Positions 2,494 through 64,000 of a stretch of DNA of 64,000 bases are shown one piece after another. Numbering within the stretch: the first letter of the stretch is position 1; every line of letters begins with the position of its first letter. Source of the DNA: Flavobacteriales bacterium (GTDB taxonomy: Bacteria > Bacteroidota > Bacteroidia > Flavobacteriales_D > Parvicellaceae); the NCBI GenBank assembly GCA_029251405.1, contig JAQXDK010000016.1:62001-126000 (forward strand). The letters run 5' to 3'. Made by a program: the position numbers and the translations under genes. The notes under the pieces were generated by a model, which worked only from the letters and a program-made list of their open reading frames with translations, made no database searches and was not told the DNA's origin.

Positions 2494-3506
2494 ATTATTT
2501 CAGAAAACTTGGATTTCCCTTTAATAAAGTAACTCCATATAATGGACTTGTTGCAATACCCAGACAAAGTGTTAATATGTCTTTTATTAATCTTTTTTCT
2601 TTTGGTTTGTAAAGATCCAATAGCTTTAAAATAATTTAGATGTGCTTTTTCAACAGCTAAAAATGAAGATAAGGATCCAGATAATAAAAACTTAAATGCA
2701 GAAATTTGATCCAATATAATCCTTGTAAAGATGAAAGTAAATAAAGGATAATTTGAATTGTAATTTTTATGAATTAGCCATAAATTATTTCTGTAATTTA
2801 AAAACAACTTTTGTGGTGAATTGTAATTTAAGGTTCCTCCTCCAACGTGAAAAACAGTAGATTCACTTGTGAAAAAAATATTTTTCCCTTGATTTTTGAA
2901 TCTCCAACACAAATCTACTTCTTCCATATGAGCAAAAAAGTCTTCATCAAATCCGCCAATTTTTTTAAATTCTTCTGCTTTTACTGCAATACAAGCACCT
3001 GAAGCCCAAAAAATTTCTTTGTCTTGGTTGTATTGTCCTTCATCAATTTCAGTATTATCAAAAATTCTTCCTTTACAAAATGTAAATCCAAAAGCATCAA
3101 TAAAACCACCAGCAGCACCGGCGTGTTCAAATTTATTTTTGTTATTAAAAGAGAGTATTTTTGGTTGTACTGCTACTATATTAGTGTTGTTTCTCAATAT
3201 TTTAATCATTGGAGGGATCCAAGAATTAGTTACTTCAATATCTGAATTTACTAGTATAAAATATTTAGAATTAATTTTTTTTAATCCTTCATTATATCCC
3301 CCTGCAAACCCAAGATTTTTTAAGAGTGGAACTATGCATACTTCTGAATGATTCTTTTTTAGAAATTCAATTGATTGGTCTGTTGATCCATTATCAATCA
3401 CATAAATATCTGCTTCTTTTTCAGAGAATTTTATAAAAAATGGTATGAACTTTTTCAACCATTTAATTCCGTTGTAATTCAATATGACTACTGAAGTTTC
3501 TATAAT
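2490..3506 (-). CDS. Family 2 glycosyltransferase, probable AUU start
   Basis: Inverting GT-A glycosyltransferase that probably transfers sugars to a surface polysaccharide or lipid. GT2 hallmarks are VIDNGSTDQS, the NLGFAGGYNEG block, the NSDIEV metal-binding region, and a MEEVDLCWRF motif typical of rhamnosyltransferase-like members. The first common-type start, TTG at 3482, would remove the opening beta strand. The open frame continues upstream as IIETSVVILNYNG, which matches how such proteins begin. No ATG, GTG or TTG lies between that segment and the upstream in-frame stop. I therefore place the start at ATT 3506, overlapping the stop of the preceding GWxTD gene as TAATT; ATA at 3503 is the alternative. 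Substrate is unknown. Confidence 0.82.
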   Translation of the reverse strand: MIETSVVILNYNGIKWLKKFIPFFIKFSEKEADIYVIDNGSTDQSIEFLKKNHSEVCIVPLLKNLGFAGGYNEGLKKINSKYFILVNSDIEVTNSWIPPMIKILRNNTNIVAVQPKILSFNNKNKFEHAGAAGGFIDAFGFTFCKGRIFDNTEIDEGQYNQDKEIFWASGACIAVKAEEFKKIGGFDEDFFAHMEEVDLCWRFKNQGKNIFFTSESTVFHVGGGTLNYNSPQKLFLNYRNNLWLIHKNYNSNYPLFTFIFTRIILDQISAFKFLLSGSLSSFLAVEKAHLNYFKAIGSLQTKRKKINKRHINTLSGYCNKSIIWSYFIKGKSKFSEII

Positions 3507-23189: not shown

Positions 23190-23864
23190 TTAAAAACCTG
23201 TTTTAGAGTAGTTGTTGTATTTTTTTGGATCGAACTCATAAAGAATAGCTTTTCTTCCTCTTGTGTTTCTTTGTACTTTTTTAACCTCTCTTAGAAAATT
23301 CATTTCCAGAATTCTTCTTCTGAAATTTCTTTTATCAAATTTTTTTGTCAAAAAAGATGCATATAAACCCTCTAATTCATTCATGGTAAATTGGTCAGGA
23401 AGAAGATTTTTACCTAGTGGTCTATATTTCATTCTTCTTTTAATTCTTTTTAATGCCATTTCAATCATATCGTTATGATCAAATGCAAACTCTGGAAATG
23501 ATTCTAAACTTGTGAAAGCAGCTCCATTATCTTCATTTAAAATTACTTTATCTTTTTCGAGATTGATTAGACCGTAAAATGATATGTCAATAATTCTTCC
23601 ATTTGGATGTCTATATACTTTTCCAAATGCATTTAATTGTTCTACATAAATGTTACTATTACCAATATTTTCAAATAATATTTCGGAACAAATTTCTTCT
23701 AAGGATTTATTAGGATCAAGTGCTTTGTTGGGGAGTATTAATGCACCTTTAAAAGGTTGGTCTTTGTTTTCTACTGTTAATACCTTTTTCTCTTCATCAT
23801 TGTAGCAAAAAAGGCAGATACTTACTGATATTCCTATATTTTGATTTTTTTCAGACAAGTTCAT
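23190..23864 (-). CDS. Nudix-like transcriptional regulator (NrtR/AraR type)
   Basis: A 224-residue regulator with an N-terminal Nudix-fold domain (residues about 10-140) and a C-terminal winged helix (about 150-224, LPDQFTMNELEGLYASFLTKKFDKRNFRRRI). The Nudix box is degenerate: the REUxEE core reads S-E-I-L-F-E, so hydrolysis is unlikely and the domain probably senses a ligand. NrtR regulators bind ADP-ribose, and the AraR branch in Bacteroides binds arabinose and controls sugar uptake. A perfect inverted repeat sits 9 bp before its ATG, and a near-identical one precedes the susC gene at 62246. I infer autoregulation and control of that locus; the ligand is unknown. Confidence 0.85.
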   Translation of the reverse strand: MNLSEKNQNIGISVSICLFCYNDEEKKVLTVENKDQPFKGALILPNKALDPNKSLEEICSEILFENIGNSNIYVEQLNAFGKVYRHPNGRIIDISFYGLINLEKDKVILNEDNGAAFTSLESFPEFAFDHNDMIEMALKRIKRRMKYRPLGKNLLPDQFTMNELEGLYASFLTKKFDKRNFRRRILEMNFLREVKKVQRNTRGRKAILYEFDPKKYNNYSKTGF

Positions 23865-23873
23865 AAATCTTAA

Positions 23874-23894
23874 TTAGTGTATTTAAGACACTAA
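23874..23894. promoter_or_regulatory. Candidate operator of the Nudix-like regulator
   Basis: TTAGTGT-ATTTAAG-ACACTAA is a perfect 7-bp inverted repeat with a 7-base spacer. It lies between the mnmA stop and the regulator ATG (both on the minus strand). The same half-sites at the same spacing occur at 62191-62211 before susC. Total length of 21 bp fits a dimeric winged-helix site. Confidence 0.65.
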
Positions 23895-23899
23895 GTTAG

Positions 23900-25054
23900 T
23901 TAATTTATTATTCCTGACCCAATTAGTTCATCATTTTTATACCAGCTTAGAAATTGTCCAGAGGTAATTCCCCTTTGTTCATATTTAAAGAAAACCTGTA
24001 ATTCAGATTTTGTGAATCTTAATTCACATTTGGTAAGTTGTTGTCTGTATCTAATTCTTGCATCATATTCTATGTCTTGAGATTTTTTGGATTTTAAATC
24101 TTCTCTAATCCAATGAATATTATCAGTACTAACAGATAAATGCTTTCTGTAGAGGCCAGGATGATCTTCTTTTTGTCCGACATATATGATGTTTTCATTA
24201 ACATCTGTACCAATTACAAACAAAGGATTTATTTTACCTCCAATATTCAAACCTTTCCTTTGTCCAATAGTGAAATAATGGGCACCGTTATGTTCTCCAA
24301 CAACTGTTCCCATATTTTTTTGGTAATTTATAGGAAGAAAGCTTTGTTGGTTCTCTTTGAATATGGAATGGTTCCTATCGATTTCAACTACTTGACCTAC
24401 TTTGTTTTTTAAAAATTGTTGTAAAAAAATTGGAAGTTTTACCTTGCCAATGAAGCATAATCCTTGTGAGTCCTTTTTGGTTGCTGTGTTTAATCCTATT
24501 TCATTAGCTATTCTTCTTACTTCCTTTTTTTCTAGAGAACCTAGTGGGAATAAACTTTTAGATAATTGATATTGATTAACCTGGCACAAAAAATAACTTT
24601 GATCTTTGGTCTTATCAACTCCTGCTAGGAGTCTGTAAATTTTTTCACCATTAATTTGTATTTCATCCTTTCTACAATAATGACCGGTTGCTACATAGTC
24701 AGCACCCAACTCTAATGCTTTTTTTAAAAATAAATCAAATTTTATTTCTCTATTGCAAAGAATATCTGGATTTGGTGTCCTTCCATTTTTATATTCTTTA
24801 AACATGTAGTCAACAATTTTTTCTTTATACTCTTTACTAAAATCAATAACTTGAAAAGGAATTCCTAGTTTTTCAGCTACCTGTAATGCATCATTACTGT
24901 CTTCTATCCACGGACATTCATCGTCTATAATTACAGTTTCGTCGTTCCAGTTTCTCATGAAAAGACCAATAACATTATATCCTTCTCTTTGTAACAAATA
25001 AGCTGCAACACTTGAATCTACACCTCCCGAAAGACCTACTACCACAGTTTTCAT
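23900..25054 (-). CDS. mnmA: tRNA-specific 2-thiouridylase MnmA
   Basis: Introduces the 2-thio group at U34 of tRNA-Lys, -Glu and -Gln. The PP-loop ATPase motif is [17 protein letters not shown] at the N-terminus. The two catalytic cysteines are in [13 protein letters not shown] (about residue 100) and SQGLCFIGK (about residue 195). The sequence GHYCRK and the C-terminal beta-barrel ending in [17 protein letters not shown] are as expected, and the length is 384 residues. A TACTTTTG box at 25059-25066 (minus strand) lies only 5 bp before the ATG, so a very short leader is possible. Confidence 0.96.
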
Positions 25055-60808: not shown

Positions 60809-62056
60809 TCACCCCCAAAATATATATGCTAAAATAATAGCTGCTATTATTCCTACAACATCTGCAAACAGTCCAGCAAGAACAGCGTATCTAGTATTTT
60901 TAATACCTACTGAACCAAAATAAACAGCAATTACATAAAAAGTAGTTTCTGTAGAACCTTGAAATGTAGAAGTTAGTCTACCTACAAATGAATTAATTTG
61001 ACTGGCGTTTTCTCCCCAAGACTCTACCATTAATCCTCTTGCACCTCCACCAGATAAGGGTTTCATTATTGCAGTTGGAAGAGCTTCTACAAATTGAATA
61101 TTATCAAGAAATAAACTAAATAGTTGACCTATCGAATAAGTCACATAACTCATAGCTCCAGAAGCTGTGAAAGCTCCAACTGCACAAAGCATGGCAATCA
61201 AATAGGGGATTATTCGAATTGCAACTGTAAACCCCTCTTTAGCGCCTTCTACAAATTCTTCATAAATATTTATTTTCTTTCTCAACCCCAAGCTAATAAA
61301 TCCTATAATAAAAGAAAATATAATTGCTCCAGATGCAACTGAGGATATGATTTCAATTTGGCTTTTGTGATTCATTAAATAATAAACCAGACTTCCAATA
61401 AATAATATTGCAGTTCCTAAATAGGCAATAATTGTTTTTTGGAATAAGTTAATTTTTTGGATGATGGCAACAAGAATAAGACCAGCAATAGTAGAACAAA
61501 AAGTGGCAATCAATATTGGTAAAAAAACATCTGTAGGATTACCACTTATATTGTTTTCTGCCATTGCTGAGGCTCTTAGAGCTATTATACTTGTTGGTAT
61601 TAAAGTTAGTCCTGAAGTATTTAATACTAAAAATAAAATTTGAGCATTTGAAGCCCTGTCCTTATTTGTATTTTCTTTTTGTAATTCTGCCATGGCTTTA
61701 AGTCCAAGTGGTGTTGCTGCATTGTCAAGACCTAACATATTAGCAGATATATTCATAATAATAGCACCGTGAGCTTTTGAGTTTTTTTGAACTTCTGGAA
61801 ATAATTTATGAAAAAGTGGTGAGAATGCTTTTGATAGTAAATCTATTGCACCTCCTTTTTCACCAATCCGCATAATTCCAAGCCAAAGAGCCATAATTCC
61901 TGTTAAACCAATGGAAAGTTTAAAGCCCAACTCAGCTCTTTCAAAAATTGAGTTTACTATTAAGGAAAAAATTTCAGGATTACCGGTAAAAGTTTTAAAT
62001 ATTGCTATAATAAATGCAACAATAAAAAACCCAATCCATATGTAGTTTAATGTCAT
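60809..62056 (-). CDS. Nucleoside-recognition membrane protein, SpmA-SpmB fusion
   Basis: A 415-residue polytopic membrane protein. The first half (FKLSIGLTGIMALWLGIMRIGEKGG, NISANMLGLDNAATPLGLKAM) matches SpmA; the second half (FVEGAKEGFTVAIRIIPYLIAMLCAVGAF, PTAIMKPLSGGGARGLM, GSTETTFYVIAVYFGSVGIKNTRYAVLAGLFAD) matches SpmB. In Bacillus these are separate spore maturation proteins; fused versions occur in non-sporulating Bacteroidota. Gly-rich repeats mark the gate-like nucleoside recognition domains. The transported molecule is unknown. Confidence 0.85.
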   Translation of the reverse strand: MTLNYIWIGFFIVAFIIAIFKTFTGNPEIFSLIVNSIFERAELGFKLSIGLTGIMALWLGIMRIGEKGGAIDLLSKAFSPLFHKLFPEVQKNSKAHGAIIMNISANMLGLDNAATPLGLKAMAELQKENTNKDRASNAQILFLVLNTSGLTLIPTSIIALRASAMAENNISGNPTDVFLPILIATFCSTIAGLILVAIIQKINLFQKTIIAYLGTAILFIGSLVYYLMNHKSQIEIISSVASGAIIFSFIIGFISLGLRKKINIYEEFVEGAKEGFTVAIRIIPYLIAMLCAVGAFTASGAMSYVTYSIGQLFSLFLDNIQFVEALPTAIMKPLSGGGARGLMVESWGENASQINSFVGRLTSTFQGSTETTFYVIAVYFGSVGIKNTRYAVLAGLFADVVGIIAAIILAYIFWG

Positions 62057-62190: not shown

Positions 62191-62211
62191 TTAGTGTCAA
62201 ACTAACACTAT
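62191..62211. promoter_or_regulatory. Candidate operator in the susC promoter region
   Basis: TTAGTGT-CAAACTA-ACACTAT: 13 of 14 half-site bases match the inverted repeat at 23874-23894, and the 7-base spacer is identical in length. It lies 34 bp before the susC ATG. A TAGCTTTTG sequence follows at 62213-62221 (one base longer than TAnnTTTG), and a TTA at 62191 lies 19 bp upstream of it. Binding here would cover such a promoter and block it. Confidence 0.65.
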
Positions 62212-62245: not shown

Positions 62246-64000
62246 ATGATGAGCGTAAACAACTGTTTTTCAAGACTTTACTTTTTTATTGTATTTTCTA
62301 TTTTCACTTTTGGTGCTTTTGCACAGTCAATTATGGTAACAGGAACTGTAATTGATGAACTTAAAGAAGGGATGCCTGGTGTAACTATAAAAATTGAAGG
62401 AAATCCTACAGGTACTACCACGGATTTTGACGGTAAATATGCTATAAGTGTTAACGATAAAAACAGCATACTTATCTTTTCGTTTATCGGTTATAAAAAT
62501 CAGGCAATCCAAGTAAATGATCAAAAGAAAATTGATGTTCAGTTAAAACTATCATCAGAATCTTTAGACGAAGTTGTAGTAATTGGATATGGAAAAACTA
62601 CTGTAAAAGAACTTACAGGTGCTACAGTGCAAGTTAAAGGTGAAAGTATAGAAAGACTTAATATTCCAAGGATGGATCAAGCTCTTCAGGGGCAAGTTTC
62701 AGGAGTTACCATCAATACCAACTCAGGTTCTCCGGGAGGTTCTTCTAGTATCAGAATTAGAGGTTTATCAACATTTGGAGATAATGACCCATTAATATTA
62801 GTTGATGGGGTGGTTTATGATTCAGAAGGTTTAAATTCTTTGAATCCTGGTGACATAGAATCGATTAATGTATTGAAAGATGCCACAGCTGGTATTTATG
62901 GAGTAAGGGCTGCAAATGGTGTTATAATTATAGAAACAAAAAAAGGTAGAATTGGAGCAAAACCTAAATTTGAAGTAGGTTCTTATGTAGGTGTCCAACA
63001 GACTACTAACAGTTTAGATTTATTGAATGCAGCTGAGTATGCTTTAATTAAAAATGAAATGTTTATTAGGGGTACTGGTGCACCTATATTCAGCAATACA
63101 GATTTAAAGGTGGGTACAAACTGGCAAGACACAATTTTCCAATCAGCTCCTATTGAAAGTTTTAATTTTGGTGTTACTGGAGGTAGTAAGAAGTCATCTT
63201 ATTCTATTGGAGGTAATTACTTTTCACAAGACGGTATTGTAGGAGGAGATAAGTCTAGTTTTGATAGATATAACGCAAGAGTTAATTTAGTTAATTCTTT
63301 AACTGATAAATTAACTCTAAGCAGTGTTTTTCTTTTCACTCATGAAGAAAGAAAAACGTTGCCAGAAAATGGATTGGGATCAGTTTTATATAATACTATA
63401 AATGCTTTTCCTACTAGAGATATTAGAACTCAAGATGGCAGGTACGAATATCTGCTTGAGGTAAACGATATTATAAATCCAGTTGCTCAAATAGAAAACA
63501 CTCATAATAATGCCGTGGTAAATAAATTGGTAGGGAAACAAGAATTTGAATATAAGATTAATAAGAATCTAGCTTTCACTAATAGACTTAGTTATAATTA
63601 TGCATCAGTAGACGATAAGAGTTTTTCTCCTTTGGCTTGGTATGGTATCGGGAAATATGCTAATTCTGCTATTAACGAAAATTTAGATCCTAGAATGGTA
63701 TTTCAAGGATTTCAACTGTCAGATCCAGACAATTTAGTTTACGACAGTATACTTGTAGAACAAGGGGCAAGTGTTTATGAGCAAAGAGCAACATACTTAG
63801 ATTTAAATTTCGAGAGTTATTTAAATTACTCTAAAACCATTGATGACCATAATATAAAAGCTACTTTGGGAACAACAGTATTTAGTAGGAGAGGAGACGT
63901 ACTGAATGGTACTGCTTTCAATATTCCTAATAACTCCATAGATTTTGCTGATATATCTGCAAGTTTAACTTCTGGTCAAATTAATCTAAATAATACCGGA
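62246..64000 (+). CDS. SusC/RagA-type TonB-dependent receptor, 3'-truncated by window edge
   Basis: Outer-membrane nutrient receptor, of which 585 residues are visible and the frame is open to the end of the window. A signal peptide (ends GAFAQ) is followed by a carboxypeptidase-regulatory-like domain (about 30-105, VTGTVIDELKEGMPGVTI and TTTDFDGKYAISV), a plug with the EVVVIGYG motif, LQGQVSGVTI and IRIRGLSTFGDNDPLILVDGV, and then the beta barrel. It should pair with a SusD lipoprotein further downstream for uptake of an oligosaccharide or peptide. An inverted repeat shared with the Nudix-like regulator gene sits in its promoter region. Two adjacent ATGs (62246 and 62249) are possible. Confidence 0.93.
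   Translation, partial: MMSVNNCFSRLYFFIVFSIFTFGAFAQSIMVTGTVIDELKEGMPGVTIKIEGNPTGTTTDFDGKYAISVNDKNSILIFSFIGYKNQAIQVNDQKKIDVQLKLSSESLDEVVVIGYGKTTVKELTGATVQVKGESIERLNIPRMDQALQGQVSGVTINTNSGSPGGSSSIRIRGLSTFGDNDPLILVDGVVYDSEGLNSLNPGDIESINVLKDATAGIYGVRAANGVIIIETKKGRIGAKPKFEVGSYVGVQQTTNSLDLLNAAEYALIKNEMFIRGTGAPIFSNTDLKVGTNWQDTIFQSAPIESFNFGVTGGSKKSSYSIGGNYFSQDGIVGGDKSSFDRYNARVNLVNSLTDKLTLSSVFLFTHEERKTLPENGLGSVLYNTINAFPTRDIRTQDGRYEYLLEVNDIINPVAQIENTHNNAVVNKLVGKQEFEYKINKNLAFTNRLSYNYASVDDKSFSPLAWYGIGKYANSAINENLDPRMVFQGFQLSDPDNLVYDSILVEQGASVYEQRATYLDLNFESYLNYSKTIDDHNIKATLGTTVFSRRGDVLNGTAFNIPNNSIDFADISASLTSGQINLNNTG

Follow-up and report, generated by a model that had tools for sequence, protein, structure and literature searches.

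The 64-kb stretch of DNA analysed here (henceforth referred to as 'the window') contains two copies of a 21-bp palindrome, each situated shortly ahead of a gene. Operator 1 (TTAGTGT-ATTTAAG-ACACTAA, positions 23874-23894) matches TTAGTGT-N7-ACACTAA exactly and lies 9 bp ahead of the ATG of a minus-strand open reading frame (23190..23864) that codes for a 224-amino-acid regulator with a Nudix-like and a winged-helix domain (henceforth R1), for which it is a putative autoregulatory site. It starts 5 bp past the stop codon of mnmA (tRNA 2-thiouridylase; 23900..25054, minus strand; Pfam tRNA_Me_trans, 4.6e-82), the gene that immediately precedes R1 and shares its strand, and takes up most of the 35-bp gap between the two. 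Operator 2 (TTAGTGT-CAAACTA-ACACTAT, positions 62191-62211) has one mismatch to the same motif, lies 34 bp ahead of the ATG of a susC gene at 62246 and is directly 5' of the -7-like box of that gene (in TATAGCTTTTGG). The half-sites of the two operators are identical at 13 of 14 bases and both spacers measure 7 bases, all as described in an earlier sequence-only reading of this DNA, which had also noticed no other copy in the window. A scan of the 64 kb at up to one mismatch confirmed this, returning operators 1 and 2 only; dinucleotide shuffles of the window gave a mean of 0.01 such sites, and two sites in 0 of 100 shuffles. With three mismatches the excess was lost (7 sites versus 6.2 by chance). 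In the genome to which the window belongs (2.23 Mb, 53 contigs), the whole-genome scan that the same reading had proposed gave an excess at up to one mismatch (5 sites, all intergenic, versus 0 for the reversed control) and none above background at up to two (16 versus 19). Two mismatches, which is background level, separate the motif from the sites ahead of zwf, of a sugar MFS transporter gene and of a second susC, and these genes were dropped as targets in this genome.

The susC gene (plus strand; TIGR04056, 3.4e-242) occupies 62246..64000 in the window, continues to C52:127392 and is followed, past the window, by genes for SusD, a PKD lipoprotein, a GH16, a GH3 (glucosidase) and a second GH16. 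Since both GH16s match solved laminarinases or beta-1,3-glucanases best (1.5e-67 and 9.4e-55), the locus is, with its substrate read from family membership, a laminarin-type beta-glucan polysaccharide utilization locus (PUL). The nutrient uptake locus with a presumed susD that had been proposed thus has both SusC and SusD, and can now be named as laminarin-type from its two laminarinase-like GH16s and its GH3. In its SusCD, GH16 and GH3 content, and in the tie of laminarin to nitrogen metabolism, it resembles the laminarin PULs of marine Flavobacteriia (Formosa, PMC6246565), from which it differs in that GH17 and GH30 are missing among the annotated genes of the locus. On the other side of operator 2, divergent from susC, lies a gene for a membrane protein with a Gate (nucleoside recognition) domain (60809..62056, minus strand; Pfam Gate). 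Operator 2 is 134 bp from its ATG, the Gate/susC pair is kept in the window genus, and control of this gene by operator 2 is possible.

Judged by its domains, R1 is a member of the NrtR/AraR family. Its C-terminal winged helix matches Pfam NrtR_WHD (1.4e-19) and AraR_C (1.7e-13), both exceeding the curated cut-off, and its Nudix-like N-terminal domain has an impaired catalytic box (EILFEN at REUxEE), with no separate Pfam NUDIX match at 0.001. NrtR, as represented by the Shewanella oneidensis protein (3gz5/3gz6), is an ADP-ribose-responsive repressor of NAD genes. R1 shares with it the family architecture, the winged-helix domain and the broken Nudix box, but has N at each of the positions equivalent to the ADP-ribose contacts R41, K76 and R98; the recognition helix of the Shewanella protein (QGKSFRRR) also differs, and no NAD genes were found among the targets of the palindrome. 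R1 therefore does not fit an ADP-ribose-responsive NrtR, and the NrtR-like ligand that the sequence-only reading had considered is not favoured by the pocket residues.

BtAraR (BT0354), from the AraR branch of the NrtR family in Bacteroides (PDB 5bs6, 5dd4, 5ddg and 5deq; PMC4666351), aligns with R1 over the full length of its Nudix-like and winged-helix domains (5bs6, chain residues 10-222, E 6e-38). In the alignment R1 retains D178, K179, R180, N181, R183, R205 and A207 of BtAraR, the first five of these in the same helix; of the base-contact set it keeps K179, R180, N181 and R205, while K184 is replaced by R and K204 by G. In the BtAraR structure K179, R180, N181 and K184 read GTGT (PMC4666351), and since these residues are largely kept, R1 is expected to read GTGT-N7-ACAC, i.e. 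the core found here. The operator oligonucleotides tested with BtAraR contain AGTGT-N7-ACAC cores (PMC4666351), and, compared with these, operators 1 and 2 have the 21-bp AGTGT-N7-ACACT form of the AraR branch; both systems also count susCD genes among their targets. The palindrome is very probably the site at which a protein of the sugar-regulator type binds DNA. In other respects R1 is unlike BtAraR. Although the arabinose-pocket residues R86, F129 and H131 are kept, others are exchanged (R34N, F36D, F49A and V92I) and G47 and G48 are also replaced; a tree places R1 in a clade of its own, separate from BtAraR and from two R1 paralogues of the same genome, R2 and R3 (some branches being long). 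No arabinose locus accompanies R1, arabinose catabolic genes being absent from the R1 neighbours and site targets examined, and R1 does not fit the role of the arabinose regulator AraR. Since the pocket residues differ and the NrtR contacts are absent, the ligand of R1 is probably neither arabinose nor ADP-ribose.

Genomes of the window genus (g1) and its sister genus (g9) were compared with those of genera without detected R1 (g4, g6 and g7), apparently all draft or metagenome-assembled. Eleven g1 genomes contained 56 sites at up to one mismatch versus 9 for the reversed control, and 3 of 58 tabulated sites were internal to an open reading frame, the rest being intergenic. The comparison of upstream regions of orthologous regulators and susC genes, also proposed earlier, bore out the motif: the palindrome is just ahead of the start codon in all 10 R1 orthologues found in g1 and g9, and upstream of laminarin susC in 12 of 12 cases with readable upstream sequence in these genera (two weak). 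At 12 of the 14 half-site columns at least 9 of the 10 R1 orthologues agree, while most columns of the 7-bp spacer drift. Judged by these comparisons, the site is real, and purifying selection acts on it. The syntenic neighbour mnmA served as an assembly control for R1. The five genomes without R1 were exactly the five without the adjacent mnmA (the searched set had no positive genome), and because the adjoining gene is missing in the same five, the missing R1 is most likely an assembly gap. One of these genomes, G005, in which sites are present and R1 was not found, was dropped as a refutation of R1 as the reader, mnmA being missing there too.

The site also precedes genes of nitrogen assimilation and central carbon metabolism, and the two-site link between R1 and susC that had been proposed was thus too small. 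Glutamine synthetase carries it in 11 of 11 g1 genomes and in 4 of 4 main copies in g9, versus 0 of 4 orthologues (84-85% identical) in the R1-less genera g4 and g7. In held-out tests, for which the matrix was trained on other genes, the site was found ahead of an operon composed of a small ORF and the ammonium transporter gene amtB (sORF-amtB; 11/11), a sodium:solute symporter gene (SSF; 5/5) and proteorhodopsin (8/10), the last with weaker scores and a near-constant distance, mostly about -110. In the window genome itself, proteorhodopsin has a degenerate site and amtB gave no match. For FBPase, a member of the training set, 7 of 12 genomes show the site; in each of these the gene either runs divergently from amtB or no amtB was detected. 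Further targets are, in 5 genomes, the gene of a T9SS-sorted protein with a class-V aminotransferase gene diverging from it, GAPDH in g9 (identified by N-terminal sequence, not by family search) and, in single or few genomes, asparagine synthetase, PAPS reductase and a sulfatase; aspartokinase, with its site about 340-440 bp away, was dropped. Overall, the list consists of glucan and sugar uptake, glycolysis/gluconeogenesis and nitrogen assimilation, and in its glucan uptake and nitrogen assimilation genes it is unlike that of BtAraR. The small ORF between palindrome and amtB is conserved in g1 and g9 (~65 amino acids, MPKSRTLNMYRQTKDSHYEVAESEIKDHSSKIFDSYFKSKEEINKENYSDFLGYLKTNGYKIVK; without an assigned family) and begins, at L090, 21 bp past the palindrome at 3358-3378; it is also present at L130-L140.

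From these data it is likely that the palindrome, as the predicted R1 operator, defines an R1-centred regulon that couples laminarin use to nitrogen assimilation. The alternative with the best claim is that the paralogue R2 (C25:10067-10747) reads the susC and carbon sites, leaving R1 its own promoter and the nitrogen genes, or that R1 and R2 compete for the same sites. The recognition helix of R2, DKRNFRK, is that of BtAraR (DKRNFR being common to R1 and R2), and R2 also keeps the AraR-like sugar-pocket positions R34, R86, F129 and H131. Laminarin susC orthologues in g4 also carry the upstream site, and in two g4 genomes (G013 and G021) these sites are strong, R2 is present and R1 was not found; in one genome (G025) a site lies 9 bp ahead of the R2 start, and g6 has a TTATTGT-N7-ACAATAA site close to R2. 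Against this, no conserved operator precedes R2 in the eight g1 genomes examined, and both the glutamine synthetase sites and site abundance track R1, not R2: exact sites number 17 in 15 genomes of the R1-bearing genera versus 2 in 24 genomes of the other genera of the family. We therefore consider a division of labour or competition of this kind unlikely as the main account. Even so, because the recognition helix of R2 is also that of R1 and g4 keeps the susC site where R1 was not found, R2 may share sites with R1, and the assignment of susC to R1 alone is not unique. The mechanism put forward in the sequence-only reading is thus partly supported: autoregulation by R1 and its control of susC have good support from the conservation and from the AraR operator and contact match, whereas R1 may not be the sole reader of susC, so that the proposal appears right in outline, too small and not uniquely assigned. 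In genera without R1, palindromes were also observed 5' of the gene of a secreted protein (L166/L167 and L202/L203), which adjoins R2 in g6; these are possible R2 operators.

That an unrelated regulator owns the palindromes and R1 is just one among many site-bearing genes, its own binding being predicted, is very unlikely, since the core is that of the tested BtAraR operators, the contact residues are largely conserved, every R1 orthologue found has a self-site and the distribution of sites follows that of R1. An RNA hairpin or intrinsic terminator is more improbable still: operator 1, so close to the mnmA stop, could form a 7-bp stem, but no T-run follows the palindrome, most copies lie upstream of genes or between divergent genes, and the strict 7-base spacing with a variable loop suits a dimer operator; this reading was rejected. 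Chance similarity in AT-rich sequence, to which the background counts at two or three mismatches would be congenial, is ruled out for practical purposes by the shuffles, the excess in the genus and the conservation of the site at orthologous promoters.

For the R1-centred regulon, the sites, their conservation, the operator and contact match and the target genes were computed, and from these we infer binding by R1, the sign of regulation, the ligand and the physiological purpose. An R1 dimer would place one winged helix on each AGTGT half. At susC, the symporter gene, the T9SS gene and sORF-amtB the palindrome is directly 5' of the -7-like box or within ~20-40 bases of the start codon, and at glutamine synthetase and proteorhodopsin it lies ~60-75 bp 5' of a -7-like box that is conserved. 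Proximal sites, on or directly 5' of the core promoter or start codon, would be repressor sites, released when a small ligand occupies the degenerate Nudix pocket of R1; they would comprise those of R1, laminarin susC, the symporter, the sORF-amtB operon, asparagine synthetase and GAPDH. The distal sites of glutamine synthetase and proteorhodopsin may serve activation, and we infer both signs from site position alone. Such a regulon would tie the uptake of laminarin and sugars, together with central carbon flow, to the uptake and assimilation of ammonium. More tentatively, and with the balance somewhat against so broad a role, R1 might be the head of a carbon-nitrogen(-light) regulon of global reach in marine Flavobacteriales, in which a single Nudix-family sensor of a carbon metabolite would jointly adjust the uptake of laminarin, the uptake and assimilation of ammonium, glycolysis/gluconeogenesis and proteorhodopsin.

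Laminarin is a major carbohydrate of algal blooms. A proteomic study of Formosa, which names no regulator, found that ammonium transporter and glutamate synthase proteins are induced when the bacterium uses laminarin or glucose (PMC6246565); carbon-nitrogen coupling of such a kind thus exists in marine Bacteroidetes. If the proposal is true, R1 would be a transcriptional regulator behind this coupling during laminarin use by marine bacteria, and a candidate for how related marine bacteria coordinate carbon and nitrogen use. No member of the NrtR/AraR family serving as a laminarin or nitrogen regulator was found in the open-access literature (most subscription papers being outside the search). 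The regulator family and operator geometry are known, whereas the predicted regulon content, not found in the literature searched, appears to be new. R1 as a specific protein, its predicted operator of defined 21 bp and the list of targets lend themselves to simple binding and reporter assays.

The second paralogue, R3, adjoins a starch locus and has N at the position equivalent to K179 of AraR. Sites of the same geometry as the R1 operator lie at its own gene (TAAACGT-N7-ACATTAA) and at the starch susC (TTAACGT-N7-ACGTTAA), located at L060:4778-4798 and L060:10346-10366 (contig C40 of the window genome), and the base that BtAraR touches with K179 is among those altered in these half-sites, which would extend the AraR/NrtR operator code outside the gut. 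In another family of the order (G060), an exact TTAGTGTACAAATCACACTAA (L162:1501-1521) lies right against the start codon of a gene for a distant R1 relative (31% identity) with the same self-site geometry; as a point against the R1-centred reading, no operator was found in R1-clade relatives of family f3. A related palindrome, TTATTGT/ATATTGT-N7-ACAATAT/ACAATAA, directly adjoins the start codon of a phosphofructokinase-like gene, identified by N-terminal sequence only, in five g1 genomes (L221:1903 in contig C24 of the window genome; L215-L218), and ATATTGT-N7-ACAATAT lies 12 bp ahead of an adenylosuccinate-lyase-like gene in two genomes (G005:C15 and G007:C56; L219 and L220).
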